A stretch of 33,911 bases of DNA from Candidatus Multivorans thiocomprendens (GTDB lineage: Bacteria; Acidobacteriota; Thermoanaerobaculia; Multivoradales; Multivoraceae), in assembly GCA_027493375.1 (NCBI GenBank), contig JAPVWO010000135.1:1-33911 (forward strand), written 5' to 3'. The notes beneath the pieces are model-generated. The model saw only the letters and a program-made list of their open reading frames with translations, ran no database searches and was not told the origin of the DNA. A program made the translations under genes and the position numbers. Below are positions 4,529 through 25,994 of this stretch, in pieces. Within the stretch, counting starts at the first letter, position 1. Every line of letters starts with the position of its first letter.

Positions 4529-4537
4529 GGGGCCGGC

Positions 4538-4543
4538 AGTCTA
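4538..4543 (-). promoter_or_regulatory. -10 element TAGACT before the LLM oxidoreductase
   Basis: Minus-strand TAGACT ending 10 nt before the ATG at 4528, giving a predicted leader of about 3 nt. No clear -35 hexamer is present. Confidence 0.4.
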
Positions 4544-4566
4544 CCGCCGGAAGCGTCGCTACACCC

Positions 4567-4742
4567 GCCCGGTCTGGGCCGGAGGAGAGGGTCCCAGCGG
4601 ACGCGAGCGCTTTCCGGATGAATGGAGGGTCGGCGCTCGCTGCGGTCGGCTGCGCTCCGGTTGGGCGTCGGACGATGGGATGGCGTCGGGCGTCGCTTGC
4701 CGACAGCCTCGCTGGGACCCTCTCCTCCGGCCCAGACCGGGC
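4567..4742. repeat. Perfect 33-bp inverted repeat, 176-bp MITE-like element
   Basis: Bases 4567-4599 are the exact reverse complement of 4710-4742, separated by a 110-bp spacer (4600-4709). Each arm contains GGTCTGGGCCGGAGGAGAGG. The match stops cleanly at both ends of both arms. It occupies most of the 300-bp divergent gap between the LLM oxidoreductase (start 4528) and the PSD1 gene (start 4829). The spacer is open in several frames but shows no recognisable protein. I see no target-site duplication. It could be a non-autonomous mobile element, a dispersed palindromic repeat or a long regulatory stem. Confidence 0.8.
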
Positions 4743-4776
4743 TGAACGGCTTCGACGTGGCGGACCTGCGGCGCGG

Positions 4777-4782
4777 TAACAT
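4777..4782 (+). promoter_or_regulatory. Possible -10 element TAACAT for the PSD1 gene
   Basis: GGTAACAT ends 46 nt before the ATG at 4829 and lies just outside the right arm of the inverted repeat. No good -35 is visible, so support is weak. Confidence 0.25.
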
Positions 4783-4828
4783 CCTCGGAATCCAGAAAGA
4801 GGATCGGGTTCCGGAGCGGTTGAGACGT

Positions 4829-9750: not shown

Positions 9751-9814
9751 GGGCGGAAGGTCACTTTCCGCCATCGCGTCGTGCCGGCGGCGCTCGACGA
9801 CCAAGGGAGGAGCC

Positions 9815-10231
9815 ATGAACTGGGGGAGAGCAATCGGTGCCGGTCTGGTGGCTGGTTTCGTTCAGAACGTCGCCAACTTCGTCATGCACGGTCTGGTGCT
9901 CGGAGGCATGTACCTGGATCAGCCGGCCTTCGTGCAGGAACCCGAGAACATGGCCATGCAGATCGTGTGGTTCCTGGTGATCGCGCTTGTCCTGGGCGTG
10001 GTGGCGAGTCTCATGTTCGCGTCGAGCCGGGGGTCCTGGCAGCCCGGCGCCAAGGGCGGACTCCACTTCGGCGTGCTGCTTGGGACCGCCATCGGCTTCC
10101 AGCAGTTCTACCTGACGCTGGTCGTCAACGACTTCCCGTACCACGTGGCCTGGATCTGGCTCGGAGTCGACATCATCTCCTTCGGCGTGGGCGGCATGGT
10201 GCTGGGCGCCGTCTACAAACGGGCGGAGTAG
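9815..10231 (+). CDS. Small four-helix membrane protein of unknown function
   Basis: 138 residues with a strong Shine-Dalgarno (GGGAGGAG, 9805-9812) 2-9 bases before the ATG. Four hydrophobic segments are visible: AIGAGLVAGFVQNVANFV, IVWFLVIALVLGVVASLMF, FGVLLGTAIGFQQFYLTLV and WIWLGVDIISFGVGGMVLG. The rest is short polar loops, and the C-terminus is KRAE. I do not recognise the family; it resembles the many small uncharacterised integral membrane proteins of about 140 residues. It is co-directional with the genes on both sides but separated from the ammonium transporter by 162 bp containing a possible promoter, so it need not be linked to either. Confidence 0.7.
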   Translation: MNWGRAIGAGLVAGFVQNVANFVMHGLVLGGMYLDQPAFVQEPENMAMQIVWFLVIALVLGVVASLMFASSRGSWQPGAKGGLHFGVLLGTAIGFQQFYLTLVVNDFPYHVAWIWLGVDIISFGVGGMVLGAVYKRAE

Positions 10232-10393: not shown

Positions 10394-11877
10394 ATGAAGC
10401 CCCAGTTCGAGCCGCTCTCGTCACGATCGATCGTTCTCAGGGTAGTTCTCGCTGGCGTTGGACTGCTTCTCGTGGCGTCCGCGGCGGGCGCCCAGGTGTC
10501 CAGCGAGGCCGCGTACATCTTCAACACCTACGCTTTCCTGGTCTGGGGGGCGTTCATCATGTGGATGTGCGCCGGCTTCACGATGCTCGAGGCTGGCTCG
10601 GTACGGACGAAGAACGCCTCCGTCATCTGCATGAAGAACATCGGCCTGTACTCGATCGCCGGCATCGCGTATTACGCAATCGGCTACAACCTGATGTACG
10701 TCGATGTGAGCGGCTGGATCGGTTCGGTCTCGCTCTTCTTCGAGGCGTCGGCGGACGAGATGGCCTTCCTCGGCGGCGACGCCGACAAGGCGGCCGCCGT
10801 CATTGGAAGCGGCTACTCCGAGATGTCGAGCTGGTTCTTCCAGATGACGTTCGTCGCCACGACGGCCTCGATCGTGTCGGGGGCTCTCGCCGAGCGCGTC
10901 AAGCTCTGGTCCTTCCTCATCTTCACAGCCGTGCTGACCGCGGTTCTTTACCCGATCGTCGGGGCCTGGACCTGGGGTGAAGGCTGGCTCTTCGACCTCG
11001 GCTTCCAGGACTTCGCCGGCTCGACGATCGTCCACTCGACCGGTGGCTGGGCGGCGCTGGCGGGGATCATCATGGTCGGCGCGCGGCGCGGCAAGTTCCG
11101 TTCCGACGGCAGCGTCAAGGCGACGCCGCCGTCCAATGTGCCGATCGTCACCCTCGGCGTCTTCATCCTCTGGATGGGCTGGTTCGGATTCAACGGCGGC
11201 TCCCAGCTTGCCCTGGGCGGCGCCGCTGACGCGACCGCCATGGGCAACCTGCTGATCAACACGAACCTCGGCGCCGCGGGCGGAGTCGTCGCGGCACTCG
11301 TTCTGTCGCGGCCGTTGCTGGGTCGCATCGACCTCCTGGCCGTGCTCAACGGCGCGCTTGGCGGACTCGTCGGCGTGACCGCGGGGCCCGACCTGGTTGG
11401 CCACCACTGGGCGCTCCTCATCGGCGCGGTCGGCGGCGGGATCACGGTCGCCGGCATGAAGCTGCTCGAGCGGATGAAGCTCGACGACGTCGTCGGCGCC
11501 GTTCCGGTCCACCTGTTCGCCGGCATCTGGGGCACCCTCGCCGTCTGCATCGCGGCCGGTGGCAGCTTCGTACCGCAGGTCATCGGCATCGTCGTGATCG
11601 GCGTCTTCGTCTTCGGGGTTTCGCTGCTCCTGTGGTGGGCGCTGGAGAAGACGATCGGCGTCCGTGTTTCGCCGGAAGTCGAGGAACTCGGTCAGGACAT
11701 GACCGAGCTGGGCATCGAGTCCTACCCCGAGTTCATCCTGATGCCCGACGAGGACGACATGCGGGCGGCCAAGGCGGCGCAGGAGCAGGCGAGGCCGAGA
11801 AGCTCGCGGAACTGGCCGAGGAGGCGGCCTCGGCCAGGACCGCCTCTCCGATGCGCGGACTTCGCCCGGCGCCTTGA
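10394..11877 (+). CDS. amt: Amt/MEP/Rh ammonium transporter with a 3'-terminal frameshift
   Basis: A signal-like first helix ends at AGAQ, followed by the typical eleven-helix Amt body. Visible landmarks are WMCAGFTMLEAGSVRTKN, the Amt signature DFAGSTIVHSTGGWAALAG, WMGWFGFNGGSQ, and the pore-lining HLFAGIWGTLAV near the end. It moves ammonium or ammonia across the inner membrane. After MPDEDDMRAAKAAQEQ the reading frame turns into Arg/Pro-rich sequence and stays open to 12712. Shifting by one base at about 11789-11791 restores an acidic/Ala helical tail (AEKLAELAEEAASARTASP) ending at a stop at 11875-11877, so I read a single-base loss there. A good ribosome site (GGAGGAA) precedes the ATG. 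No glnK-type PII gene is adjacent. Confidence 0.85.
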
Positions 11878-14222
11878 CTCTCGGCGCCCACCCTCGACTT
11901 TGCGGCGGACCACGAGGCGGTGCTCGCGGTGGCCGACGCGCTTCGTCTGGAGTATGGACACCAGTTCAACCCGGCGTTCGCCGCCGAGACGTCGCGGATC
12001 CATCCGCTGCTGCACCAGCGCTTCGCCGTGTACGAACGCATGCTCGGGCAGGACCCGTTGCGCTTCCTGCTGGCGGACGACGCGGGCGCGAGGACGCCGT
12101 GCTGGGCGCCGTGGCCGTTGTCAGAGCGGAGGAACTGCGCCGCGAGGCCAGCGTGGTCGCTGGTCTGGCCAACCGGGCCCGCCGTATCGTCGAGTCTGGG
12201 CGGGAGGCGAAGTTCGAGCGTCTTCGCGGGGTACTCGAGAGTCGCGGGCATCGGGACGAGAAGTGGCTCATCTTCAGCGAACACCGCGACACGGTGGATC
12301 ATCTGGCGCGCCGCCTGGACGGACTCGGTTACGGTGGTTTGGTCGCGCAAATCCACGGCGGCATGGACTGGAGGGAGCGAGAGCGGCAGGTCGAGTTCTT
12401 CCGGCGGGCGAACGGCGCCCGGTTCATGGTTGCCACGGACGCCGCCGGCGAGGGGATCAATCTTCAGTTCTGCCACCTCATGGCGAACTACGACATCCCG
12501 TGGAATCCGGCGCGGCTCGAACAGCGGATGGGCCGGATTCACCGTTACGGTCAGCGGAAGGTCGTCCGCATCGCCAATCTGGTGGCCACGAGCACGCGCG
12601 AGGGCCGGGTTCTGTCCGTGCTGCTGGAGAAGCTGGAGAAGATGCGCGCGGATCTCGATTCCGACAAGGTCTTCGACGTCATCGGCAGGCTGTTCGCGGC
12701 GGATGGCGGTGAGTCGCTGACCAGGGTGATGGCCGGCGCGACCGACGCCGCGGGGGAACGCCGCGCGGTCGAGCGGATCGGGACCGCCTTGAACGCCGAT
12801 CGCCTCAAGCGGCTGGGCGAGGAGGAGGCCCGCGCCTACGGCGTGCCCGAGCAGGACGTGACCGGCGCGAGACTTCGTATCGGCCTTGAGAGAGAGCCCT
12901 ACCTGGAACTCTTGCCTTCCCGGGTGCGCGGTCTGGTGGAACGCGGCGCGCGGCTGCTCGATCTGGAAATCCGCGGCGATCTGGACGACCGCTTCGCCTT
13001 GGCGGCCATGGTGCCGGGAGCGTTGGACCCGCTGCTGCCGGCGTTGGAGGAGTACCCGGCCGAGGCGCGGGATCGGCTCACGGTTCGGCGGCTCGAAGGG
13101 GACGACTCCGGCATCTGGCTCCACCCCGGCGAGCCCTTGTTCGATGCCTTCCGCGGAGAAGTCCGGTCCCGCCACGCCGCGGATGCTCTGCGGGGCGCGA
13201 TCTTCGTCGACCCGCGGGCCAAGGCGCCTGGCTTGATCCATCTTGCCGAGGTGTGGGTCGAGGAGGAGGAAAGGGGCCACGCAGGCGCCGGGGACGCGAC
13301 GGGCAGGCGGGAAATCGAGCGCCGGCTGGTCGCGGTCGAGCAGCGGGAGGGGGCTTCCCCCCGGGGATGCCCGGTCGAGAAGCTGTTTCTGATGCCGCCG
13401 TCCCGCATCGCCCCGGGCACGGTGCCGCTGGCCGCCCGGGCGCTCGACCTTCGGGCTGAAGCCGCCGCCTTTCTCGACGGGTTTCTGGAAGACGAAGTGC
13501 GCCAACACAGGCAACGGCGGGAAGCCGCGCTTCCGGAGAGGCGCCGCCGCGTTGCCATGGGTTTCGACCTCCGGCTGGCGGAACTGGCGCTTCGACGCGG
13601 CAAGATCGCCCGTCGAGGCGCCGGCGCACAAGGGCGCGGCGGTGAAGAACTTGACCTCCTCAAGCGGGAACAGAGAGCGGTTCAGGGCGACCGGCAACTG
13701 GCACTGGACCGGTTGGCGGCGGAACCGGAGCGGGTCGTACCCGGAGGCCATCGCTTCCTTCTTCACGCCCTTGCCGTTCGGCCCGAGGACGTTGCCGGCC
13801 TCGAGGACATTGAGGCCTTCGACGAGCCGACGGAGCGGATCGCGGTTGGGATCGCGTCGGATTGGGAGAGGGATCGCGGCGCCCAGGTCCGGGACGTTTC
13901 CACGCCTGAGCTTGCGCGCCGGGCGGGCCACTCCGACTGGCCGGGCTTCGATCTCCTGTCCGAGCTGCCGGGTGGAGAGAAGCGGTGCATTGAGGTCAAG
14001 GGACGGGCCGGACGGTCGGGCGTGTCCATCGAGAGCAACGAATGGAAGCAGGCCTGTCAGTTGGAGGAGGACTACTGGCTCTACGTCGTGCTCGACTGCG
14101 CGACCCCGTCGCCGTCGCTCTGGCGGATCCAGGATCCGTGGAGCAAGCTTTTCGCGAACGAGCGCGTCCGCTCCGTGTTCAACGTCTCGGTCGGCCAGAT
14201 CGAGGCGGCAGCCGAGAGATGA
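11878..14222 (+). pseudogene. SNF2-type helicase with DUF3883 domain, core ATPase motifs deleted
   Basis: Two frames encode pieces of one protein. From 11878 to about 12088 the frame reads the family N-terminus: LRLEYGHQFNPAFAAETSRI, then HPLLHQRFAVYERML and RFLLADDAG, where intact homologues continue GAGKTIM. At about 12085-12091 the sequence jumps frame to VRAEELRREASVVAGLANRA, normally some 380 residues later. Walker A, the DEAH box and motif III are therefore absent. The second frame keeps motif IV (KWLIFSEHRDT, near 12260), motif V (DAAGEGINLQFC, near 12440), motif VI (QRMGRIHRYGQ, near 12522) and a C-terminal DUF3883 domain (GFDLLSE, CIEVKGRAG). No start codon precedes the first conserved residues after the amt stop; a GTG at 12111 could start a 703-residue remnant. 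It cannot be an active ATPase as read. Confidence 0.85.
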
Positions 14223-14259
14223 CCGGGCGGCCGCGGATCGCCGAAAGGGGAACGAGACG

Positions 14260-14676
14260 ATGAGAACGACCACGAGGAAGGACTCGACAACCATGGGACT
14301 GACACATATGCGGGCAACCGTGCGCAACCCGGCGGACGCCGGACGATTCTGGACGGGCGATTTCCTGGTCGACACCGGGGCCATCGACTCCCTTGTGCCC
14401 AGACAGCATCTGGAGGCGATAGGAGTCCAGGCTCAGGGCCGCCGCTCCTACAGCCTGGCCGACGGTTCGGAAACGGAGATGGAGGTAGGGGTCGCCCAAC
14501 TGGAGTTCCTGGGCGATTTCGTCGGCAGCACGATCGTCTTCGGTCCGGAGGACTCCGAACCCCTGCTCGGGGTGACCGCGCTGGAGTCGCTGGGAATCGA
14601 GGTCGATCCGACGAACCAGCAACTGCGGCGTTTACCTTCGGTCCGGCTGAAGACGGCTCGGGGGATCGCACGATGA
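14260..14676 (+). CDS. Retropepsin-like (clan AA) aspartic protease
   Basis: About 138 residues. The catalytic motif is in FLVDTGAIDSLVPRQHLEAI (DTG triad), followed by the beta-rich YSLADGSETEMEVG and the second conserved strand-turn PLLGVTALESLGIEVDP. Only one DTG is present, so an active enzyme would be a homodimer, as in bacterial retropepsin-like proteins of about 125 residues. Two starts are plausible: 14260 (AAGGGGAAC upstream) and 14293 (GAGGAAGGA upstream); the second gives the MGLTHMRATV start that aligns best with the family. It lies 37 bp after the helicase remnant, and its stop overlaps the start of the two-TM gene. Its role among defence genes is unknown; cleavage of a neighbouring protein is one inference. 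Confidence 0.8.
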   Translation: MRTTTRKDSTTMGLTHMRATVRNPADAGRFWTGDFLVDTGAIDSLVPRQHLEAIGVQAQGRRSYSLADGSETEMEVGVAQLEFLGDFVGSTIVFGPEDSEPLLGVTALESLGIEVDPTNQQLRRLPSVRLKTARGIAR

Positions 14677-14978
14677 ATGACAGGGAGCTGGCGCAGAAGA
14701 TCAGGAAGAGCAAGGTCCGGGTGCGGGTCACCTATCTGATGAGTGCCACCTATGCGGTCGGCGCACTTGGGCTTATCGCTTGGCTCATGGCTACCGGGAG
14801 CACGGAACTTGCTCTCGGGGTGTTCTCGGGAGTTGCCTCGACAACGGCCTCCATCACCGCCTTCTGGTTCGGTTCACGGGGTTCGGCGGCGGATCCGGAT
14901 GGGAGGGACGGCCCCGCGAACCTCGCTGGTGCGGCCTCGTCTTCCGCCTCTGGTGCTGGGACTTCAGGAGCGGCCTGA
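14673..14978 (+). CDS. Small two-helix membrane protein, KAP-associated
   Basis: 101 residues, start overlapping the protease stop (ATGA). A basic N-terminus (RKSKVRVRVTY) leads into two hydrophobic helices, LMSATYAVGALGLIAWLMA and LALGVFSGVASTTASITAFW, and then a low-complexity Gly/Ala/Ser tail. I do not recognise a named family. It ends 3 bases before the KAP NTPase start, so the two are probably translated together. A membrane anchor or pore partner for the KAP NTPase is inferred from position only. Confidence 0.7.
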   Translation: MNDRELAQKIRKSKVRVRVTYLMSATYAVGALGLIAWLMATGSTELALGVFSGVASTTASITAFWFGSRGSAADPDGRDGPANLAGAASSSASGAGTSGAA

Positions 14979-14981
14979 GCC

Positions 14982-16295
14982 TTGCGCTGGAGATTCCAGG
15001 AACCGAAGATCGGCGATCTTGACGGCTTCCAGAACACGGACCTCTTCGGCTATGCGGGTTTTGGGGATTGGCTCGCCAACATCGTTGGCGGGGCCGAGGA
15101 TGAACCGGTCGTGCTCATTGACGGTGACTGGGGGAGCGGCAAGACGGTCTTCGCCAGGCAATGGGCCGGTGTGCTGCGGGAGCGGGGCCACGCCGTCCTG
15201 TACTTCGACGCCTTCGCGGCGGACTGCCAGGACGACCCGTTCCTCGCTCTCGTCGAGGCGGTCTACGCGTTCGCGGAGAAACAGGGAGTCGAGGGCGAGC
15301 TTCGCGCGAAGTTCAGCACGGAGGCGGCGAAGGCCGCCGGGGCGGCTCTGGGTCTCGGTCTGGGCCGGCTGGCTCTCGACCGCGTTGGCCTCGTCGAGAC
15401 TGTCGACGAGGTTCGGGAGGCGATGAGAAGCGACCGGACCAGACTCAAGGGCTGGATCGAGAGCGCGACGGAGAGGAAGCGGACGGTAGCGACGTTTCGC
15501 GAGACTCTCGAGAGACTGGCCCAGGCCGTGGTGAGCGCTACCGGCGCCGAGAGCCGAGCCAACGCCGCGGCCGCCGAAGAGCCCGGGGATCGCGGCCGTC
15601 TGGTTTTCCTCGTGGACGAACTGGATCGTTGCAGACCCGACTTCGCGCTCGGCGTCCTCGAGCGGATCAAGCACGTCTTCGGCGTTCCGGGCGTCTGCTT
15701 CGTCCTGGTGACGAACGTCGCCGATCTGGAGCAGTCCGTTCGGCGGGCTTACGGGGAGGTCCGGGCGCGAACGTATCTGGAGAAGTTCTTCGACCTGCGC
15801 TTTCGCCTGCCTGACAGCGCGCTTCGCGGGAACGGAGCCGGAGTCTTCGTCGAACGTCTGCTGCGGACCTTCGACTTACGCGTTGTTGCATCGGGGTATC
15901 CGATCGTGGAAGCGTTCGAGAGTCTGGCCGCAAGGCGCGGGATGAGCCTTCGTACGATGGAGCATGTTGCCCGGAACATCCTGCTGTTTGCGAGCTGCCC
16001 CGGCCGCCGTTTCCTGACCGCGGCCGAGCCTTCCGGCGTGGTGGTCAGCGCGATGCGCGTGGTCGATCCGGCTTTGTTCAAGCGGCTCCGGCGGGGCGAA
16101 GTGGATGAGGCGGACGCGGCCGTGCTGAAGTTCAAGGTCGATGCCGTCATGGGGCCTCCTCGACCGCCTCAACCGGGTCGGTTCGGCACAGAACGGGAAG
16201 TCGACGAGGGGCTGCACGAGATGCGGGAGCGTTGCGGCAGCCATTCCTGGGAGTTGCGGCAGGCTGCCCGCTGCCTGAACACCTTCGATCTCTAG
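14982..16295 (+). CDS. KAP family P-loop NTPase
   Basis: 437 residues with a TTG start 3 bases after the preceding stop; no ATG is near the conserved beginning. Walker A is GDWGSGKT (residues 48-55, Lys54). Walker B and the KAP signature are LVFLVDELDRCRPDF (Asp212-Glu213). VCFVLVTNVADLEQSV follows as the sensor strand. KAP proteins are STAND-like NTPases often tied to membranes and, in bacteria, frequently found in mobile and defence islands. A small-residue hydrophobic stretch (AAGAALGLGLGRLAL, near residue 115) falls where other KAP proteins carry membrane insertions, but it is short. The preceding two-TM gene may supply the membrane part. Substrate unknown. Confidence 0.85.
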   Translation: MRWRFQEPKIGDLDGFQNTDLFGYAGFGDWLANIVGGAEDEPVVLIDGDWGSGKTVFARQWAGVLRERGHAVLYFDAFAADCQDDPFLALVEAVYAFAEKQGVEGELRAKFSTEAAKAAGAALGLGLGRLALDRVGLVETVDEVREAMRSDRTRLKGWIESATERKRTVATFRETLERLAQAVVSATGAESRANAAAAEEPGDRGRLVFLVDELDRCRPDFALGVLERIKHVFGVPGVCFVLVTNVADLEQSVRRAYGEVRARTYLEKFFDLRFRLPDSALRGNGAGVFVERLLRTFDLRVVASGYPIVEAFESLAARRGMSLRTMEHVARNILLFASCPGRRFLTAAEPSGVVVSAMRVVDPALFKRLRRGEVDEADAAVLKFKVDAVMGPPRPPQPGRFGTEREVDEGLHEMRERCGSHSWELRQAARCLNTFDL

Positions 16296-16329
16296 CGGCC
16301 CGTTGGCGCGAGGGCAAGGGAGAAGTCTG

Positions 16330-19300
16330 GTGGCGAGCGACAGACGGTTCATCGAGACGGAGTGGTTTCCGCTGAGGGAGGCCTCGATCGATTCGGTGCA
16401 CGAGAAGAACGTCCGGCACGGCCACATCTCCACGCTGCACATCTGGCCGGCGCGGCGGCCGCTGGCGGCTTGCCGGGCGGCGTTGCTGGCGACCCTGCTG
16501 CCGGACCCGGGAACCGAGGAGGGGCGCAGGCGTCTGAAGGAACGGATCGCCGGAAGCGTCGTCGAGCGGCAGACGAAGGCGGGCAAGCTGAAGGAGGAGA
16601 CCGACGGCGGCATCCTCCACTGGGGTCGCGAGGGTGGGCCGGAACTGGAGCGGTTCCGCGAGGAGATCCGGGAGGCGTTCGGCGGCCGGGCGCCGCGGGT
16701 GCTGGATCCGTTCGCGGGCGGCGGGGCGATTCCGCTGGAGGCGATGCGGCTCGGCTGCGAGGTCACGGCTTCCGATCTCAACCCGGTCGCCTGGTTCGTG
16801 CTTCGCTGCACCTTGCACTACCCGCGGCTGGTGGCGGCCCAGGCGCGGCCTTTGCCCGAGTTCGCCGCGCGGGACCGCGACTTCGTCGAAGCCTGGCTCA
16901 AGGCGCGCGGCGTTACCCGGAAGGCCGCGTTGCGGGAGGAACTGCGGCGGCTGGGGCACGGCGACGGCGAGCCGGTGCAGCTCAGCACGAGCGACCTGGG
17001 CGGCGGGGCTCGGGAGACCGGCGCCGGCCGCCAGACGACGCTGGTCGACGAGGCGCCGCCGGGACCCGGGAGGCCATCGGCGGAGGCGGACTTCGCGTGG
17101 CACCTGCGGGCCTGGGGCCGGCGGGTGCTGGCGGAGGCGCGGCGCGAACTGGCCGGCAGGTACCCGATCTACGCCGAGTTCGAGCCGGCGCGGCGGAAGG
17201 GGCGGGCGAAGAACCGGGGGCCGGCGTCGTTTCCGGACGAGCCCTACCATCCGCGGCTGCCCCGGCGCCTTCGGCCGGATGCCGACGGCAAGGTCTCCGT
17301 CGCCGGGTTGAACGCCGGCTTCGGCGCGGAGTACCTGAAGAACGAGGCGAACCCGCGCTGGGTGGCGAAGTCCCCCGTCGCCTACCTCTGGGCCCGCACC
17401 GTGCGCTGCGCGAACTGCCGCGCCGAGATGCCGCTGCTCAAGACGTGCTGGGTGGCGAAGAAGCCGGGCAAGCGAGTGCTGCTCACCATGACGCCGCGGG
17501 CAGACGGCGCGGGTGTCGAGTTCGGGCTGGAGCGCGACGTGCCGGAAGGGGACGGCAACGCGGCCCGGCGGCGGGAGCACGACCGGAGGCTGGGCGCCGG
17601 CACCATGAGCAGGAGCGGCGCGGAGTGCCCGTGCTGCGGAGCGATCTCGACTACGGCGGACATTCGCGTGGAGGGCCGTGAGGGCCGTCTCGGCGCGCGG
17701 ATGACAGCCGTCGTCGTGGACGGCCAGCAAGGCAAGGAGTATCGACTGCCGACGGCAAAGGAACTCGCGGCGGCCGAGGTGTCGGATGAGGAACTGCGGG
17801 AAGTGTTCGCCGGCGTTCCGTTCGGGCTGCCGGAGGAGCCGATCTGCGCTGTGCGGCCGTCGCCTAACGCGCGTGGCGCGTCGGGCTTGCCGGGTTACGG
17901 TCTGGACACTTGGGCGAGGCTCTTCACGAATCGACAGTTGCTTGCGCTGGGCACGCTGGTCCGGGCGATTCGGGACGCTCCGGCAGAGATGGGGGAGTAT
18001 CCGGCAGCGTGGCGAGAGGCGCTTCTCGCTTGCCTGGCGCCGTCGATCAGCAAACTGACTGATCGCGGCAGTTCACTGGCGACGTGGACCAACGATCACG
18101 ACAAGATCAGAAACACGTTCGCGCGCTTCGCCTTACCGATCGTCTGGGACTTTGCGGAGTCCTGTCCGTTGGCGGACACCACGGGCGGTTTTCTGCAAGC
18201 GGTCGACTGGGTGGCCCGTTACATCGAGCACGCAGCGGCCGGCGTGTCCCGCTCGCCCGGAGTGGCGGTTCGGCTCCAGAGTGCGACTCGTCGCCAGAGC
18301 CATGAAGTCGACGTGATTTGCACCGACCCCCCTTACTACGACGCCATTCCCTACTCCGACATCATGGACTTCTTTCACGTCTGGTTGCGGAGGGTGCTCC
18401 ACGGCTTCTCGGCCGAGACGGATGGCGTCTTTGCCGAGGCGCTTGGCCCGAAGTGGGACCGGTCGGCCGCCGATGGCGCCGGCGCCGGCGAGCTGGTCGA
18501 CCAGCCCGGGCGTTTCGGCGGCGACGGCGGCGAATCGCGCCGCGCCTACGAAGACGGCATGGCCGAGAGCTTCGTCCGCTGCCGCGAGGCTCTCGCGGAG
18601 GACGGCAGGCTGGTCGTCGTCTTCGCCAACAAGTCGCCCGTCGCGTGGGAAACGCTGGTCTCGGCCCTGATCCGGGCGGGCTTCGTCGTGTTCGGCTCGT
18701 GGCCGATTCAGACGGAGATGATGAACAAGGTGGCCGGCGGCGCGCGGCTTTCCTCGTCCATCTGGCTCGTCTGCCGCCCGCGGTCCGCCGCCGCCCGGCC
18801 GGGCTGGGACACCCGGGTGCTGGCCGACATGCGGGCGAACATCACGGGCCGGCTGCGGCGGTACTGGGACGCCGGCATCCGCGGCCCCGACTTCGTCTGG
18901 GCGGCGACCGGCCCGGCGCTGGAGGCGTTCAGCCGTCACCCCGTGGTCAAGATGGCGGGTTCGCCGCGGGAAACGATGCCGGTGGCCGGCTTCCTCGCCC
19001 AGGTGCGGCGCATCGTCGTCGCGTTCGTCGTGAACCGGTTGCTGGCCGGGGACGGCGACGGCGCGTCGGAGCTCGACGGGCCGACCACGTACTACCTCCT
19101 GCACCGCAACGACTACGGGCTTGCCGCCGCGCCGGCCGGGGCCTGCATCCTCTACGCCGTCTCGTGCGGTCTGTCGGACGCTGGACTGGCCCGTGAGCAC
19201 GATCTGCTCGTCCGGGGCGGCGGCGGCGCCCCGAGCGCCGCCGGGGACGGCGCCGCGGAGGAAGAACCGGCAAGCGCCGGCTCCGGTTCCGAGGTTCGCC

Positions 19301-19608
19301 TCAAGGCCTGGGACCGCCGTCGGCGTCGCGGCCTGGGCGAGCCGACGCCCGGCGGCGCGCCTCCGCCGCTCATCGACTGCGTTCATCGGCTGATGCAGCT
19401 CTGGAAGACGGGCGAGCAGAGCCGGGTCGACCGCTATCTGGAGACCCGGGGCCTGTGGCGTCACGAGCTCTTCGCCCGGGTGGTCCAGGCGGTCATCGAA
19501 CTCGCCCCGGCGGGTTCCGACGAACGGTCCACGCTCGAGTCGATCCAGAACCACCTCCAGGGCCGCGCGGCCGCCGCCTCCGCGCCGAGCCAGCGGGCGC
19601 TGGTGTAG
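16330..19608 (+). CDS. DUF1156 domain DNA methyltransferase (anti-phage-island type)
   Basis: 1092 residues from a GTG at 16330 with AGGGAGAA upstream; a TTG at 16303 is an alternative. The N-terminal DUF1156 block is obvious (REASIDSVHEKNVRHGHIST, then IWPARRPLAACRA). SAM-binding motif I is DPFAGGG (126-132) followed by VTASDLNPVAW. The catalytic motif DPPYYD (from 666) indicates exocyclic amino methylation of adenine or cytosine in DNA. Between them are Cys pairs C360/C363 and C433/C435/C436, a likely zinc ribbon. A Gly/Ala-rich linker precedes the C-terminal IDCVHRLMQLW block. Homologues usually sit beside DUF499 ATPases and DUF3883 helicases, as here, and probably mark self DNA. Confidence 0.9.
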   Translation: MASDRRFIETEWFPLREASIDSVHEKNVRHGHISTLHIWPARRPLAACRAALLATLLPDPGTEEGRRRLKERIAGSVVERQTKAGKLKEETDGGILHWGREGGPELERFREEIREAFGGRAPRVLDPFAGGGAIPLEAMRLGCEVTASDLNPVAWFVLRCTLHYPRLVAAQARPLPEFAARDRDFVEAWLKARGVTRKAALREELRRLGHGDGEPVQLSTSDLGGGARETGAGRQTTLVDEAPPGPGRPSAEADFAWHLRAWGRRVLAEARRELAGRYPIYAEFEPARRKGRAKNRGPASFPDEPYHPRLPRRLRPDADGKVSVAGLNAGFGAEYLKNEANPRWVAKSPVAYLWARTVRCANCRAEMPLLKTCWVAKKPGKRVLLTMTPRADGAGVEFGLERDVPEGDGNAARRREHDRRLGAGTMSRSGAECPCCGAISTTADIRVEGREGRLGARMTAVVVDGQQGKEYRLPTAKELAAAEVSDEELREVFAGVPFGLPEEPICAVRPSPNARGASGLPGYGLDTWARLFTNRQLLALGTLVRAIRDAPAEMGEYPAAWREALLACLAPSISKLTDRGSSLATWTNDHDKIRNTFARFALPIVWDFAESCPLADTTGGFLQAVDWVARYIEHAAAGVSRSPGVAVRLQSATRRQSHEVDVICTDPPYYDAIPYSDIMDFFHVWLRRVLHGFSAETDGVFAEALGPKWDRSAADGAGAGELVDQPGRFGGDGGESRRAYEDGMAESFVRCREALAEDGRLVVVFANKSPVAWETLVSALIRAGFVVFGSWPIQTEMMNKVAGGARLSSSIWLVCRPRSAAARPGWDTRVLADMRANITGRLRRYWDAGIRGPDFVWAATGPALEAFSRHPVVKMAGSPRETMPVAGFLAQVRRIVVAFVVNRLLAGDGDGASELDGPTTYYLLHRNDYGLAAAPAGACILYAVSCGLSDAGLAREHDLLVRGGGGAPSAAGDGAAEEEPASAGSGSEVRLKAWDRRRRRGLGEPTPGGAPPPLIDCVHRLMQLWKTGEQSRVDRYLETRGLWRHELFARVVQAVIELAPAGSDERSTLESIQNHLQGRAAAASAPSQRALV

Positions 19609-19617
19609 GTTTGTTCC

Positions 19618-20967
19618 GTGTTCACTTCGCTTCGCTTGCGCGACTTCAAGAACTTCCGTGACGAGACGCTGCGCATGGGGCCGTTCACCATGCTGGTGGG
19701 GACGAACGCCAGCGGCAAGAGCAACGTCCGCGACGCTTTCCGGTTTCTCCACGGGATAGGTCGCGGCTACGACCTGGCGGATGTGATCGGCGGTCGCTAC
19801 GGCGCCGGCGGGCAGGTGGAGTGGGCGCCGATTCGAGGCGGCGTGGACGAAATCGTTCGATTCGGCCGCGATGAGTTTCGCTTGGAAGTCGGCTTGAGAG
19901 TCTCCACCAGGTTACCCATGACCCTTCCGGCGATCCTGCCCGGCCCGGGGGGCTCACCCGGTGGCTGGGACGTGCGATACGGGATCGGCGTGGGCCGCGT
20001 GAACGACGGCGGTGCCGTGTTCCGGCTCAACGGGGAGTTCCTGAGGGTCGGTGTCCAAGGCGACCCGATCTTCAACAGCCGACCGGGGCCGGGCGATCCG
20101 ATCGAGCGTGAAGGCGCCGGCGTCGAGACGATGTCCTTTCGCATGGCGAAGACGGGCCGGCAGAGAAGGCTGGGTACCCGGGTTCGGGTGTCTCGGGCTT
20201 CTTCCGCCTTGGTTCAGGTGCAGTCGAGCAAGAGGGTCGCCAAGGACCAAAAGGACCGGGCGGGCGTGATGCAGCACAGGCTGTCGTGGATTCGCTTTCT
20301 CGATCTTTCGCCCGAACGGATGCGGCAGCCGTCCTTTCCGGGCCAGACGGTGCTCGATGACCGGGGCGGCAACCTGCCCACGGTTCTTCGGGATCTCTGC
20401 GAGGACCCCGGATGCAGGGAGACCCTGATCGAGTGGACACGCGAACTGACGCCGATGGACGTGGCTGACTTCGAGTTTCCGGTGGATCCGACGACCGGTC
20501 GGATTCAACTCGCCGTGCGCGAGAACAGCGGCGCCATAGTGTCGGCCTACGCCGCGTCCGACGGCACGCTTCGCTTTCTGGCCATGCTCGCCGCGCTCCT
20601 GGGGAACAACCCGGCGGGTCTCTACGTGTTCGAGGAACTCGACAACGGGATTCACCCGTCCCGGCTCCGGTTGTTGATCGACCTGATCGAGGGCCAGACG
20701 GCGAAGGGGGGAGTCCAGGTGCTGACCACGACACACTCGCCGGAACTGCTGTCCATGGTTGGCGACGAGACGTTCGCGAGCACATCGCTCATCTGCCGCC
20801 TCCCGGGGACGAACACGGCGGTGATCCGGCCGCTCCGTGACCTGCCCGAAACGGAGAGGTTGCGGGCCTCCCAGGGGCTGGGCAGGCTTCACGCTTCCGG
20901 CTGGATGGAGGATGCGGTGTTCCTGGCGGCGGAAGAGCCCCGAGACGAAACCCCCGCCGCCCGGTGA
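19618..20967 (+). CDS. OLD-like AAA ATPase (AAA_15/AAA_21 type)
   Basis: 449 residues, GTG start 9 bp after the methyltransferase. The N-terminus is the ABC/SMC-like strand SLRLRDFKNFRDETL, then Walker A GTNASGKS (28-35). Walker B with catalytic glutamate is YVFEELDNGIHPSRL (Glu339-Glu340), and the H-loop is LTTTHSPELLSMV (His373). There is no nuclease domain in the same chain; that function may be in the next gene, which overlaps by four bases. Such ATPases act as sensors or DNA-clamping motors in OLD, Gabija and PARIS-type defence. It is smaller than OLD because the TOPRIM part is separate. Confidence 0.88.
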   Translation: MFTSLRLRDFKNFRDETLRMGPFTMLVGTNASGKSNVRDAFRFLHGIGRGYDLADVIGGRYGAGGQVEWAPIRGGVDEIVRFGRDEFRLEVGLRVSTRLPMTLPAILPGPGGSPGGWDVRYGIGVGRVNDGGAVFRLNGEFLRVGVQGDPIFNSRPGPGDPIEREGAGVETMSFRMAKTGRQRRLGTRVRVSRASSALVQVQSSKRVAKDQKDRAGVMQHRLSWIRFLDLSPERMRQPSFPGQTVLDDRGGNLPTVLRDLCEDPGCRETLIEWTRELTPMDVADFEFPVDPTTGRIQLAVRENSGAIVSAYAASDGTLRFLAMLAALLGNNPAGLYVFEELDNGIHPSRLRLLIDLIEGQTAKGGVQVLTTTHSPELLSMVGDETFASTSLICRLPGTNTAVIRPLRDLPETERLRASQGLGRLHASGWMEDAVFLAAEEPRDETPAAR

Positions 20968-21539
20968 GAATCCTCATCGTTCCGGAGGACTTCCGGAAGG
21001 ATCAGTACATCCTCAGGCCCCTCTTCGAGCGGCTGTTCAGGGAGTTGGAGCGCCCTTCGGCGCGGGTCGTGGTCTGCCAGGATCCGCTTCTTGGCGGCAT
21101 TGCCGAGGCCCTCGAGCTGGAGAGACTCCGGGAAGTGGTGGACCGCTACCGGGGCATGATCGACACCTTCGTGCTCTGTGTCGACCGCGACGGGAAGCGG
21201 GGCCGGCGCGGACGGCTCGACGAGACCGAGAGGGAACTCGGCGCCGAGGGTTCCTTCCTGGCCGAGAACGCATGGAAGGAACTGGAGACGTGGACTCTCG
21301 CGGGCCTGGAGCTTCCGTCGGCTTGGCGTTGGGCGGAGGTCCGGGCGGAGGTGTCCGTCAAGGAGAGGTACTTCGAACCGCTCGCCGACCGGTTGGGAGT
21401 AGCCGACGCGCCCGGACGGGGCCGCAAGCCCCTTGGGGAGCGGGCCGCCCGCAGGATCGACGCGATCCGGCGGAAGTGTCCGGAGGACTTCGACCGGCTT
21501 GCGCGTCGGCTCGAAGCCGTCGCCGGCGCCGGTTGGTAG
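20964..21539 (+). CDS. TOPRIM/DUF4276-like protein, probable effector of the AAA ATPase
   Basis: 191 residues, GTG start in a GTGA overlap with the ATPase stop, so expression is coupled. The first strand ILIVPED ends in acidic Glu8-Asp9. A second strand carries VLCVDRDG (Asp74, Asp76), the DxD of TOPRIM folds. A third acidic block is AENAWKELETW (Glu106, Glu108), which matches the E-x-W helix of DUF4276 proteins. These acids would bind metal for nuclease chemistry. The assignment is by pattern, not overall similarity, so I hold it at moderate confidence. The arrangement of a short ATPase followed by a small TOPRIM protein parallels PARIS-like two-gene systems, without implying they are the same. 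Confidence 0.6.
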   Translation: MRILIVPEDFRKDQYILRPLFERLFRELERPSARVVVCQDPLLGGIAEALELERLREVVDRYRGMIDTFVLCVDRDGKRGRRGRLDETERELGAEGSFLAENAWKELETWTLAGLELPSAWRWAEVRAEVSVKERYFEPLADRLGVADAPGRGRKPLGERAARRIDAIRRKCPEDFDRLARRLEAVAGAGW

Positions 21540-21542
21540 CAT
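21537..21542 (+). promoter_or_regulatory. Possible -10 element TAGCAT before the DUF499 gene
   Basis: TAGCAT overlaps the stop codon of the TOPRIM-like gene and ends 23 nt before the DUF499 ATG. No ribosome site is obvious in the 25-bp gap, which favours a separate short-leader transcript. No -35 is visible. Confidence 0.3.
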
Positions 21543-21564
21543 CCCGCCCGGTCCACGCCCCACG

Positions 21565-24500
21565 ATGACCAAGCAACGCCCCAGGCCCTGGCACGAGGTC
21601 GTCCGACTGAAGGACGAACTGCGTAGCGGCGAACTCTCGCTTGCCGAGTTCGCCGCAGATCTTCACGAGGTGACCCTCCAGCAAGGACGTCGGCCGGTGT
21701 ACGAGGAGCCGGAGAGATTCTTCGGCTTGACTTTCCCGACCTGGGCGCTGCGGGAACTGGTCAAGGACGTTGCTTCCAGGCTGGCCGGAAAGAGCGAGAA
21801 GGCGATCCGTCAGTTGGAACTCACCTACGGCGGTGGCAAGACGCACACGCTGATCGCGCTCTTCCACCTGTTCCGCGACCCGGACTCGCTGCCGGAGCTG
21901 GCGGCGGTGCGGGAGTTCCGCGAACACGCGGGAGGCGCCCTTCCCGGGGCTCACGTCGCCGCGCTCTGCTTCGACAAGATCGACGTGGAGCGAGGAATCG
22001 AGGGCGTCCGGTCGCCGGACGGGGAAACCCGTTCCCTCCGGCATCCCTGGAGCGTTCTGGCGTACCAGCTCGGCGGCGACGATGCGCTGCGGGCGATCTC
22101 CGGCGCAGGGGGCGCGGAGGAGCGCGAAACGCCGCCGGCGGAGCCGCTGCTCGTGAAGCTGCTGGAGCTTCCCCGTGAGCGCGGTCTCGGCACGCTCGTT
22201 CTGGTGGACGAGGTGTTGATGTATGCCCGTGAGAAGGCCGGCCACAACCAGGTGTGGCGGGACCGCATCATGGACTTCTTCCAGTACCTGGTCCAGGCGA
22301 CGACGAGAGTGGACCGCGCGGCCCTGGTCGCCTCCCTGCTGGCGACCGATCCCGCGAAGCAGCAGGGGGAGACCGGCCAGTTGCTGATCGGCCAGTTGTC
22401 GGACGTCTTCCGCAGACAGAAGGAGGAAGGGGTGCAAACGGTCGGCAAGGATGATGTCGGCGAGGTCCTGCGCCGGCGCTTCTTCACGCCGGCGTCCTTG
22501 CGGGACAAGGCCGCCTGGCGGCCGCAGTCGATCGGCGCCGTGCGGGAACTGGCCAGGCTCGAGGAGACGGTTCGGAAGGCGCGCAAGGCGGAGGAGGAGC
22601 GTTTCGAAGCCGGTTTCCCCTTCCATCCCGACCTGACGGACCTGTTCTACTCGAAGTGGACCCAACTGCCCGGCTTTCAGCGGACCCGCGGAATCCTGCG
22701 GACCCTGGCGATGGCGCTCCGCGGGTCGGAGCCGTGGGACGAGAGTCCGTTGGTGGGGCCGGCGGCCCTTCTGCGCGCTCCTGGCGAGGAGGGCATCGCG
22801 GGCCCGGTCCGCGAACTCGCGGGCGTGGCGGCGCCGGAGTCCGGCGAGGGCGCTCGCACCGACTGGCCGGCGCTGCTCGAGAAGGAACTCGAGATCGCCC
22901 GGGACGTTCAGGACGAGTTGCCGGCCCTGGCCGCCGGGCGGGAGGTCGAGCAGGCGGTCGTCGCCGTGTTCCTCGGCTCCCAGCCAACCGGCAGCAAGCT
23001 GGCGACGCCCGAACTTCTGCGGCTGACCGGCGCCAGCGGTCCGGACGGTATCGTCCTTCGGAAGGGGCTTCTGCGGTGGCGGGAACTCTCGTGGTTCCTG
23101 GACGACGAGGATGCGGAGGGCGGACCGGACCCGGAGATGGATCTGCCGAGGTCGTGGCGGCTGGGGAACCGCCCCAACCTGCGGCAGATGCACGATCAGG
23201 CCTGTCGCGATCGGGTCACTGCCGCGGCCGTGGACGCCGGGGTGGAGGACGCGATCCGAAAGGCCGCTCCGTTGACCGACGGCGCCCGGGCGGCGGGCGC
23301 CATCGTGCATCGGCTGCCCCGGACCCCCGGGGACGTGGGGGATGACGAGCGCTTCCGCTACGTGCTTCTCGGCCCACGGGCGGCCTCCGAGTCCGGCAAG
23401 CCGAGCGCGCTCGGGCTCCGTTACCTCGCCGAGACGACCGGCGCCGACCGGCCGCGGGTTCATCGAAACGCCGTCGTGCTGGCCGTGCCGTCGCGGGACG
23501 GCCTGGAGATCCTGCGCGGCGCCGTGCGGTCGCTGCTGGGCTGGGAAGAGGTGCGGAGTCAACTCCGGGGACAAAGCGTCGACCCCGTCCGCCGCGTTCG
23601 CCTGGACCGGTCGCTCGAGGAGGGACGAGCGAGGATTCGAGAGGCGGTTCGTCAGGCGTACCGCATCGTCGTCGCCATGGGCGCCGACGGCCAGCCGCAA
23701 GCGTTCAAGCTGCCGGGCGCCGTGCCGAAGCTGTTCCTCGAGATCAAGGGAGACGAGCGCTCCCGGATTCAGGAAACGGCGGTGGATGCCGAGGCGCTGT
23801 TGCCGGACGGCCCTTGGGATCTGTGGCGCGAAGGCGAGGACTCGCGTCTGGTCAAGGACCTGGCGGGCGCCTTCGCGAGGTACCCGCATCTACCGCGGAT
23901 GCTTCGGGCGCGGGCCATTCGGGACACGGTGCTCCAGGGGGTCGAGCGCGGTCTGCTCGTCGCACGGTTGAACCGGCCCGACGGCAGCGGACGCACCTGG
24001 TGGCGGGAGAGCGTACCGCCGGAGTCCGCGAACGATCCGTCGCTCGAAGTCGTCCTCCCCGAAAAGGCGGTCCTGGATCGGCTGGGGCCCGAACTGCTCG
24101 CGCCGAACGCGTTGCCCGGCTTGTGGCCGGAAGATGGCGGCGGACTTCCGTTTGCCGGGCTTGCTCGCTACTTCGGCGGAGGCTTCAGCGCGAGTGTGCC
24201 TCGGGAAGGCTACGAGGACGTGGTCGCCATCCCGAGCTGCCCGGCGGAAGCGATCGAGGACGCCGTGCGCCGGGCCGTGGAGGAGGGTATCGTCTGGCTA
24301 CGGAACGGACCGACTTCCGTCTGGAAGGAAGAGGCGCCTCCAGGGGTTCTGGACGACGATGCGACGCTGGCGCAGCCGCCCGCGGACCTGATTCCGCAGG
24401 ATCTGACCGAGGAGGCGCTGGCCGACGCCTGGGCGAACGGCGAGACGAACGGGGCGGCTCTTGCGCTGGCTCTGAATCGAGCCCGAAAGGACACGCTGCC

Positions 24501-24852
24501 GTGGATGCTCGTCCGCGAGGGGATTGAGAACGCCGTTCGCGGTCGTTGGCTGGAGGTGAAGGACGGGAACACGTCGGTGCGGCTCGAGCGGGCGGGCGCA
24601 GTCGTCCTGGGTCGACCGGAAGCCGCGCGGCCGCCAACGGCGCCGCCGCGGGCCCCGGGAGTCGAAGCGACTCTCGATCTGGTTCAGCTTCAGGACCTCG
24701 GGGAACGGGCGCCCGAGCTGATGCAGTTGGCGGCGGGCTGCGACGTCAGCTTTCGGGTGGTGGCGGTGTTCGGTGAGGAAACGTCGGAAAACGTGCGCAA
24801 GGAGTTGGCTAACGCCCTCCGGGAGATCGCGGGCGAGGCGCCGCCGGGTTAG
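21565..24852 (+). CDS. DUF499 family ATPase (anti-phage-island type)
   Basis: 1095 residues from the ATG at 21565 (MTKQRPRPWHEVVRLKDELR); upstream in-frame sequence is shadow of the previous gene. The DUF499 Walker A is LTYGGGKTHTLIALFHLF (Lys92), and Walker B is TLVLVDEVLMYARE (Asp215-Glu216). Other conserved blocks are HPWSVLAYQLGG, FPFHPDLTDLFYSKWTQLPG, then FQRTRGILRTLAMA, and late RAGAVVLGRPEA. DUF499 proteins are large AAA+ ATPases of unproven biochemistry, repeatedly encoded with DUF1156 methyltransferases and helicases in defence islands; the role resembles that of BREX PglY/BrxC-type ATPases only by analogy. The frame is intact and of usual length. It is the last gene of the array. 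Confidence 0.9.
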   Translation: MTKQRPRPWHEVVRLKDELRSGELSLAEFAADLHEVTLQQGRRPVYEEPERFFGLTFPTWALRELVKDVASRLAGKSEKAIRQLELTYGGGKTHTLIALFHLFRDPDSLPELAAVREFREHAGGALPGAHVAALCFDKIDVERGIEGVRSPDGETRSLRHPWSVLAYQLGGDDALRAISGAGGAEERETPPAEPLLVKLLELPRERGLGTLVLVDEVLMYAREKAGHNQVWRDRIMDFFQYLVQATTRVDRAALVASLLATDPAKQQGETGQLLIGQLSDVFRRQKEEGVQTVGKDDVGEVLRRRFFTPASLRDKAAWRPQSIGAVRELARLEETVRKARKAEEERFEAGFPFHPDLTDLFYSKWTQLPGFQRTRGILRTLAMALRGSEPWDESPLVGPAALLRAPGEEGIAGPVRELAGVAAPESGEGARTDWPALLEKELEIARDVQDELPALAAGREVEQAVVAVFLGSQPTGSKLATPELLRLTGASGPDGIVLRKGLLRWRELSWFLDDEDAEGGPDPEMDLPRSWRLGNRPNLRQMHDQACRDRVTAAAVDAGVEDAIRKAAPLTDGARAAGAIVHRLPRTPGDVGDDERFRYVLLGPRAASESGKPSALGLRYLAETTGADRPRVHRNAVVLAVPSRDGLEILRGAVRSLLGWEEVRSQLRGQSVDPVRRVRLDRSLEEGRARIREAVRQAYRIVVAMGADGQPQAFKLPGAVPKLFLEIKGDERSRIQETAVDAEALLPDGPWDLWREGEDSRLVKDLAGAFARYPHLPRMLRARAIRDTVLQGVERGLLVARLNRPDGSGRTWWRESVPPESANDPSLEVVLPEKAVLDRLGPELLAPNALPGLWPEDGGGLPFAGLARYFGGGFSASVPREGYEDVVAIPSCPAEAIEDAVRRAVEEGIVWLRNGPTSVWKEEAPPGVLDDDATLAQPPADLIPQDLTEEALADAWANGETNGAALALALNRARKDTLPWMLVREGIENAVRGRWLEVKDGNTSVRLERAGAVVLGRPEAARPPTAPPRAPGVEATLDLVQLQDLGERAPELMQLAAGCDVSFRVVAVFGEETSENVRKELANALREIAGEAPPG

Positions 24853-24905
24853 CGTAGCCGCCGCGCGCTCGGGAAGCCGCGCAACGACCCGCAGGAGGTT
24901 TTGGG

Positions 24906-25994
24906 ATGAGACTTGCCGCCGCCGTGGCGATTCTTGCGATCGTCTCGATCATCGGATTTGCCATCGACTCGATTCCGCCGGGATCCGCTCAGGAATCGGA
25001 GCCCGGGAGCGGCGACGGTCCGCTCTTCCACGACGTCCACTTCCACCTCACGAACTACGTCCAGCGGGGCATCACGCTGAGCGAGTTCCTGGAGATCGCG
25101 GCGAACGACGTGGGGCGCACGGCGGTGTTCGGCATCCCGCTGCAGCAGAAGTGGGACTACTTCGAGTCGGGGGATCGGGCGCCGGACTACTACCTGCACT
25201 CGGATTCGGCGCTCTACTACTACTCGTTCATCGACGCGATGATCGCCGAGGAGTACCTGGCCCTGTCGCCGGAGCGGCGGGAGCGCTTCGACCCGATGAT
25301 CACGGGCTTCAACCCGACGGACATGTACGCCGCGGACCACATCCGCCGGGTGCTGGAGATCTACCCGGGCGTGTTCTCGGGCATCGGCGAGTTCTCGATC
25401 CACAAGGAGTTCGTGACGTCGAAGATCGCGGGCCACGCCGCGAGCCTGCGCAATCCGGCCCTGGACCGCGTGCTGGAGTTCGCGGGAGAGACGGGCCTGG
25501 CGGTCATCCTGCACAACGACATCGACACCGTGCTGCCGACCGGCGCTCCCGAACCCGTGCATCTGGAGGCTCTGCGCGAGGTGCTCGCGGCGCATCCCGA
25601 CGCGACGATCATCTGGGCTCATACCGGGTTGGGCCGTTTCGTGGCGCCCGCCGCGGACCATGTGGAACTGCTCGACGCCCTGCTCTCGGACGAAGCGTTC
25701 TCCCATGTGCACTGCGACCTGTCCTGGGACGAAGTGGCGAAGTACATCGTGCGCGACGAGACCTCGCTTGAAGCCTGGACCGCGCTGCTCGAGCGCCATC
25801 CCGACCGCTTCCTGTTCGGGACGGATTCCGTTGCGCCGAGCGGCCGGGACGGGTACCTCAAGACGTGGCGCGACTACGCGCCGCTCTGGGACCGGCTCAG
25901 CGAACCGACACTGCACGCGATCACGATCGGGAACTACGAGCGGATCTTCGACGAGGCGAACCGCAAGGTGCGGGCCTGGGAGGCCGGGGAGTAG
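24906..25994 (+). CDS. Exported amidohydrolase-family metal hydrolase
   Basis: 362 residues with AGGAGG (24893-24898) 7 bases before the ATG. Residues 1-28 form a signal peptide or N-terminal anchor (LAAAVAILAIVSIIGFAI). The amidohydrolase_2-type TIM barrel shows the beta-1 metal motif DVHFHL (His45, His47), then VILHNDIDT, IIWAHTGLGRF with the second metal histidine, and FLFGTDSVAP with the conserved Asp. The C-terminal ITIGNYERIFDEA is typical of the family. It would hydrolyse or decarboxylate a small organic substrate outside the cytoplasm; the substrate is not predictable. It starts 53 bp after the defence array and marks its right edge. Confidence 0.82.
   Translation: MRLAAAVAILAIVSIIGFAIDSIPPGSAQESEPGSGDGPLFHDVHFHLTNYVQRGITLSEFLEIAANDVGRTAVFGIPLQQKWDYFESGDRAPDYYLHSDSALYYYSFIDAMIAEEYLALSPERRERFDPMITGFNPTDMYAADHIRRVLEIYPGVFSGIGEFSIHKEFVTSKIAGHAASLRNPALDRVLEFAGETGLAVILHNDIDTVLPTGAPEPVHLEALREVLAAHPDATIIWAHTGLGRFVAPAADHVELLDALLSDEAFSHVHCDLSWDEVAKYIVRDETSLEAWTALLERHPDRFLFGTDSVAPSGRDGYLKTWRDYAPLWDRLSEPTLHAITIGNYERIFDEANRKVRAWEAGE

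Follow-up and report, generated by a model that had tools for sequence, protein, structure and literature searches.

Introduction

The helicase-methylase-ATPase system (Hma; PADLOC, PMC8565338) has been renamed type-1 BREX-related (BR) in PMC12839542, which describes backup effectors and nucleases inside such loci and after which restriction resembling that of restriction-modification systems is inferred for Hma. Here, we analyze an Hma locus in a 33,911-nucleotide stretch of contig JAPVWO010000135.1 from Candidatus Multivorans thiocomprendens (Acidobacteriota), called the window below, in which a retropepsin-like aspartic protease, a small membrane protein and a KAP-family nucleoside triphosphatase (NTPase) occupy the HmaA-HmaB gap. 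PrrC, a backup effector nested in the modification-dependent EcoprrI type I restriction operon, offers a comparison for effectors carried within such gaps, as an analogue only.

The window resembles described Hma loci in its gene order, in its strong matches to HmaB and HmaC, and in a partial HmaA match, a helicase with NOV_C at its C terminus like that of intact relatives. It differs in having KAP as cargo, in a lineage whose HmaA is constantly accompanied by a retropepsin, and in that its own HmaA is truncated. The KAP protein matches PDC-S20 and phrog_8614 over most of its length, and is embedded in an Hma locus whereas class relatives occur with methyltransferase loci. It shares a KAP P-loop domain with QatA, although it scores 54.8 against an NCBIfam cut-off of 600, and no QatBCD was among the matches listed for the nine window proteins scanned. 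The same domain is found in Tmn, which has two transmembrane domains (PMC11846954); the window KAP has no membrane helix. The protease is similar to clan AA bacterial retropepsins (TIGR03698; ApRick and retroviral folds) in its DTG motif, half-size chain and fold, but it lies in an antiphage operon rather than standing alone.

A retropepsin-like protease travels with HmaA

Judged by family profile, catalytic loop and predicted fold, the window protease is a retropepsin-like clan AA protease. The 138-residue product contains FLVDTGA, scores 69.4 bits against TIGR03698 (cut-off 57.35), and is above the gathering threshold of both gag-asp_proteas and Asp_protease_2. Across 12 proteases, D38 and T39 of the catalytic loop are invariant (12/12) and G40 is present in 11. 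Retropepsins were the best PDB matches found by Foldseek for an AlphaFold2 model of the protease (predicted local distance difference test, pLDDT, 80), namely those of feline immunodeficiency virus (FIV), xenotropic murine leukemia virus-related virus (XMRV), human immunodeficiency virus (HIV) and Rickettsia (ApRick), with the FIV protease giving the best E value (2.2e-05). A sequence search of the PDB returned weak ApRick matches only (E=0.12).

The association with HmaA is seen both within and outside the genus. HmaB proteins 69-100% identical to that of the window occur at seven loci in six genomes of the genus, and the protease is next to HmaA at all seven; these genus proteases share 61-66% overall identity with the window's. 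The protease was found at none of the 11 further HmaB loci retrieved from relatives (L023-L033, two of which are without the HmaA end). Of 331 HmaB relatives in GTDB genomes, the best 80 were taken; HmaA and HmaB are in order at 71 of these loci, and the counts thus hold for close relatives. Nine of the 71 HmaA-HmaB gaps, across five phyla, contain the protease: four loci of the genus, L064 (Pseudomonadales, Pseudomonadota), L076 and L083 (Latescibacterota), L077 (Caldilineaceae, Chloroflexota), and L101 (Longimicrobiales, Gemmatimonadota). Every slot copy runs in the direction of the operon, and all but those at L064 and L077 come first among the genes called after HmaA; elsewhere within the 80 HmaB loci, no protease was found. 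For the gaps outside the genus, 0.07 chance protease matches were expected compared to four independent ones observed, an estimate that is conservative because the protease density was taken from the five genomes concerned, all of which bear the gene.

Ratios of nonsynonymous to synonymous substitution rates (dN/dS) indicate that the protease is under purifying selection. The ratio is 0.20-0.26 between the window protease and six relatives and 0.15-0.36 across 21 protease pairs, with HmaB at 0.12-0.25. Between L019 and L021, nucleotide identity is approximately 90-92% for HmaA and the protease and 82% for HmaB; the protease was therefore inherited with HmaA. Taking these observations with the variable gene content described below, we consider it likely that the HmaA-HmaB gap is a cargo slot in which this lineage keeps the protease throughout and exchanges passengers such as the membrane gene and KAP.

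The slot has a median length of 2.6 kb and measures at least 1 kb at 55 of the 71 loci. The protease is followed at L018 by a helical protein with a weak CATASP match (E=0.0027, 18 bits; cut-off 29) and an open reading frame (ORF) that is nuclease-like by eye, at L020 by GmrSD_N and HEPN, at L077 by TIR, and at L101 by Schlafen AlbA_2 and an N6-methylase; at L064, a Tle1-like protein precedes it. Slots without a protease are likewise varied, for example PycTM and a cyclase, forming a complete Pycsar pair, beside a DUF5677 gene at L024 (10129-12322, minus strand), Dcm-GHKL-KAP at L063, and zeta-toxin-like, DUF6988 and KAP genes at L061. Several cargo ORFs are without a family (369 aa at L018, 218 aa at L019, 1215 aa at L076, 307 aa at L063). 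Separately, a helix-turn-helix (HTH)-Peptidase_M78 gene and its partner lie inside the slot in the orientation opposite to the operon, in toxin-antitoxin style, at L013 (10958-12761, minus strand) and in the matching part of L019. The L101 protease (1798-2562) runs into an extra C-terminal region of approximately 130 aa that has no Pfam match.

The three genes of the window are not a conserved module

The preliminary description had proposed that the protease, membrane protein and KAP NTPase form one coupled defense module of a type not previously described. Its account of their packing is borne out by the ORF coordinates: the protease stop (14674-14676) overlaps the membrane-gene ATG at 14673 (ATGA, 14673-14676), and the membrane ORF ends at 14978, with the KAP TTG start 3 nt on, at 14982. 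Co-translation of the three genes is a plausible consequence of this arrangement. The setting is also one of defense, since the genes sit in an Hma antiphage locus, which is a described type. We searched 147 relatives for the three proteins and found 13 protease matches in 11 genomes, seven KAP matches in five genomes, and 11 membrane-protein matches in 11 genomes (E up to 0.01), with strong membrane-protein matches, besides the window's own, only in genomes G016 and G019. Among these relatives, all three genes occur together nowhere but in the window, an outcome named beforehand as the refutation test, and the trio as a module was rejected on co-occurrence. At five other Hma loci of the genus, the protease has different neighbors. 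In both G016 and G019, the membrane-protein relative comes after a further small membrane ORF, and the 19-kb stretches around these relatives contained no match to KAP, the protease or HmaB. The suggestion that the protease cleaves KAP or the Gly/Ala/Ser tail of the membrane protein found no evidence in its favor, as the partners are not conserved together.

On the basis of sequence, a chance origin is excluded for the protease and KAP ORFs, which have good codon scores (+24 and +137, respectively). The codon score of the membrane ORF is neutral (-3.4), yet we regard the ORF as real because it has a homologue in G016 with 39% identity over 92 aa (E=9.4e-12); its G019 homologue is 38% identical. 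Two transmembrane helices had been attributed to its product. Only one is clearly hydrophobic, at residues 22-40, and the second is marginal. A phage or plasmid source was considered for this protein and gave no match.

The KAP protein matches KAP_NTPase (PF07693) with E=2.5e-30 and 106 bits (cut-off 20), and PADLOC PDC-S20 with E=1.4e-58, from its start over 375 residues. Many KAP NTPases, though not all, carry inserted transmembrane segments; the window KAP is without a membrane helix, its highest insert hydropathy being 1.16. A PDB sequence search with KAP gave no match, and its structure model is poor (pLDDT 67, four sequences), so that a match to RdrA is of little weight.

KAP is a companion of METHYLTRANSFERASE loci: each of its seven occurrences in the relatives is within or adjacent to a methyltransferase locus. 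It is found in Hma in the window and at L013, with HsdM and HsdS at L012 and L015 (overlapping by 4 nt at L015), with HsdR and N6_Mtase at L016, approximately 1.2 kb away, with HsdR and HsdS at L017, and with N6_N4_Mtase at L014. At L061 and L063, it lies directly upstream of HmaB. A wider test of 396 genomes across the phylum found KAP in two, which both belong to the genus, and added no new contexts, while single-sequence scans of genome contigs and viral contigs gave no close KAP relatives. The possibility that KAP forms one Hma-specific clade was not supported.

An apparently damaged Hma locus on an inserted island

By profile matches and gene order, the locus is Hma, equivalent to type-1 BREX-related, and not of unknown type. 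DUF1156 in HmaB scores 65.5 bits (cut-off 24) and DUF499 in HmaC scores 51.4 bits (cut-off 23), and the genes are arranged as HmaA-slot-HmaB-slot-HmaC (Table 1).

Table 1. The Hma island, its genes and its flanking genes, by position in the window
Feature	Position	Strand	Evidence
amt, ammonium transporter; conserved genus gene, left island edge	10394..11794	+	TIGR03644 517 bits; homology to relatives ends 11793/11794
Inserted island, ~13.1 kb, carries Hma locus	11795..24905	+	amt and 24906-25994 gene adjacent in L170-L178
HmaA remnant (SNF2 helicase + NOV_C)	11892..14222	+	PADLOC HmaA, Helicase_C, NOV_C, nucleotide comparison, intact relatives
Retropepsin-like aspartic protease (DTG)	14260..14676	+	TIGR03698 above cut-off, fold match, dN/dS
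Small membrane protein, one clear and one marginal hydrophobic helix	14673..14978	+	Hydropathy; homologues in G016, G019
KAP-family P-loop NTPase (PADLOC PDC-S20), Walker A GDWGSGKT, Walker B VFLVDELDRC	14982..16295	+	
HmaB, DUF1156 N6-adenine methyltransferase; start probably GTG 16330	16303..19608	+	PADLOC HmaB 3.2e-102; gene model
AAA_21 (OLD-like) ATPase, PADLOC PDC-M07A	19618..20967	+	AAA_21 1.6e-32; PDC-M07A 1.2e-61
Unnamed 191-aa partner of AAA_21 gene	20964..21539	+	tblastn 52-74%
HmaC, DUF499 ATPase; ORF opens 21433, likely ATG 21565	21565..24852	+	PADLOC HmaC 5.7e-67; DUF499 5.4e-14
Conserved gene, right island edge, amidohydrolase-like by eye	24906..25994	+	Homologous from 25020/25026 on in L170-L178

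The gene amt was found in 21 of 21 genomes of the genus, and the insertion site was compared in nine of them (L170-L178) besides the window's own. In all nine, the site is empty and amt adjoins the gene that marks the right island edge. The junction in the window is at the amt stop codon, and the island opens inside HmaA. A chimeric contig is an unlikely origin of this junction, as both flanks are neighbors in 9/9 relatives. The insertion also cost amt its stop codon, and the ORF reads on to 12712, so the transporter would bear a long foreign tail.

Intact HmaA relatives have approximately 1200 aa with HTH, SNF2-related, Helicase_C and NOV_C regions. The PADLOC HmaA match in the window (1.4e-69) covers profile positions 452-869 of 1176 only, compared to 62-871 of 1176 at L018. 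Positions 11892-12089 (198 bp) are out of frame and are followed by a 997-bp deletion relative to the relatives; the open C-terminal part runs from about 12099 to 14222, and approximately 487 N-terminal codons, encoding the HTH and the SNF2-related/DEAD region, are gone. Because the complete SNF2 helicase expected of Hma is missing, the locus is classed as a damaged copy. NOV_C is above its cut-off, and its equation with the published restriction endonuclease and the reading of a PD-(D/E)XK motif were made by eye. Restriction by this copy is doubtful on these sequence features, and has probably been lost because HmaA is truncated. The protease, KAP and methylase ORFs remain open despite the truncation. 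Another locus, G000:C224, has intact-looking HmaA, HmaB and HmaC frames.

Between HmaB and HmaC, the AAA_21 ATPase (PDC-M07A) and the 191-aa protein (19618-21539) form a pair that is also present at L019, L020 and L024, where the homologue of the 191-aa protein is full-length or nearly so and lies beside the ATPase. The 191-aa protein had no match in Pfam, PADLOC or NCBIfam.

Other contexts of the protease

Seven Hma-bearing genomes were searched for further close copies of the protease, and ten regions were fetched. Some of these copies have neighbors associated with defense. BrxB/BrxC are approximately 2 kb from the L155 copy (8207-8581), the L159 copy (8895-9275, reverse complement) belongs to a GHKL-Dcm locus with overlapping genes, and cas1/cas2 are approximately 3 kb from the L162 copy (8922-9302, reverse complement). 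The L154 copy is directly preceded by a stand-alone Schlafen AlbA_2 gene (9398-9988, minus strand) outside Hma, a pairing also seen at L101. HmaC is approximately 2 kb from the L156 copy, which is at the L061 locus, and the L153 copy has a neighbor that is PIN-like by eye. Among matches from the phylum, L040 (9514-9888, reverse complement) comes directly after cas2 and cas4-cas1, L041 (8873-9244) is near csb genes, and L038 and L039 have no clear defense neighbor. Given these gene neighborhoods near BREX, CRISPR and GHKL-Dcm genes, this retropepsin subfamily may have a wider defense habit.

Discussion

Our tentative explanation of how such a locus might work is less secure than the slot anatomy itself, and we consider its mechanistic steps, taken alone, possible rather than probable. 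HmaB would mark self DNA, and HmaA with HmaC would find and destroy unmarked DNA, in a manner resembling restriction-modification. The passengers would come into play when the Hma core fails, as backup effectors or guards. KAP would be the likeliest ATP-driven sensor or effector, with the membrane protein perhaps linking it to the membrane. The retropepsin, presumably as a dimer, would most likely act on HmaA or an HmaA-HmaC complex, in maturation, turnover or switching. HmaA is a better candidate target than KAP because the protease travels with HmaA while the passengers change.

Several points weigh against our reading of the locus and against a close tie between these genes and Hma. The protease is absent from 62 of the 71 slots and is therefore not needed for Hma. 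The ten further close copies have mixed neighbors, four of them (L157, L158, L160, L161) without an evident defense neighbor, and the protease tree mixes Hma and other copies and does not group the Hma proteases as one clade. A single origin of the Hma proteases was not supported, with four changes on the tree, two of them forced by starred branches. The L021 protease (4482-4892) has DTR instead of DTG while HmaA, HmaB and HmaC are intact. The protease and KAP occur together, without the membrane gene, at only one more locus (G004:C11). For KAP, of 37 matching plasmid records, 10 were viewed, and an annotated neighboring methyltransferase was present at one of these 10 loci. Finally, an assembly fault inside HmaA could be the source of its breakage in the window.

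The strongest alternative, although we judge it improbable, is that these are plain defense-island neighbors, independent genes that came to lie where insertions are tolerated and that do not work together with Hma. In its favor, the slot content varies and includes a nested Pycsar set and inverted toxin-antitoxin-like genes, and both protease and KAP have stand-alone relatives, with protease copies also near BREX and CRISPR genes. Against it, the protease is slot-specific and HmaA-proximal in five phyla, and it is under purifying selection and co-inherited with HmaA.

Proteases activate effectors in caspase-type bacterial systems. By analogy, the retropepsin could trigger a backup arm of Hma by activating whichever effector is in the slot, an interpretation that we think unlikely. 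The protease is constant while slot effectors change, and the helical protein after the L018 protease has the weak, sub-cut-off match to CATASP. In addition, protease and nuclease-like cargo have decayed as a pair with the core intact at L021, where the cargo gene is frameshifted beside the DTR protease, and at L022, where the protease has gone from LLG to LLR and the neighboring cargo gene is broken. This paired decay, the sole sign of a triggered arm, comes from two related loci, though; effectors of unrelated folds would need a common cleavage site, and KAP and other effectors are found in slots without a protease. It is more doubtful still that a cross-phylum Hma lineage uses the retropepsin as a constant switch that, when restriction is blocked, releases whichever interchangeable killing module is in place, be it KAP with the membrane protein, TIR, Schlafen, a GmrSD-like protein or another.

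Alternatively, KAP and the membrane protein could be the separated parts of a Tmn-like KAP NTPase, in which membrane helices are built in, and could work on their own; Tmn itself contains two transmembrane domains (PMC11846954). The helix-free window KAP with a small membrane gene 3 nt upstream is suggestive of this, but related KAPs in the class are without such a neighbor and no Tmn model was among the PADLOC matches listed, and we hold a split protein to be a poor prospect. The coupled module, in which the protease would cleave and activate the membrane protein or KAP on infection and so damage the membrane, is very improbable: its overlapping or nearly overlapping genes on one strand and the protease-KAP pair at G004:C11 speak for it, whereas the neighborhoods largely refute it, with no second locus holding all three genes, protease without KAP at five of seven genus Hma loci and five non-genus loci, KAP in Hma slots without a slot protease (L061, L063), and membrane-protein relatives located elsewhere.

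The link between a retropepsin and Hma across five phyla appears undescribed in the literature searched, where no title pairs a retropepsin with Hma or BREX, a provisional result as most subscription papers and preprints were outside its scope. The main text of PMC12839542 contains none of the words 'retropepsin', 'aspartyl' and 'KAP'. In the same literature, retropepsin-like proteases have no described antiphage role. The case also illustrates how genes packed closely on a single contig can look like a machine and yet come apart on comparison. The seven methyltransferase neighborhoods of KAP suggest that PDC-S20 KAP NTPases may act alongside modification systems, a role open to testing. The protease, as a constant neighbor of HmaA in five phyla, raises a testable question of its own: whether a retropepsin regulates a restriction-like system, and what it would cut.

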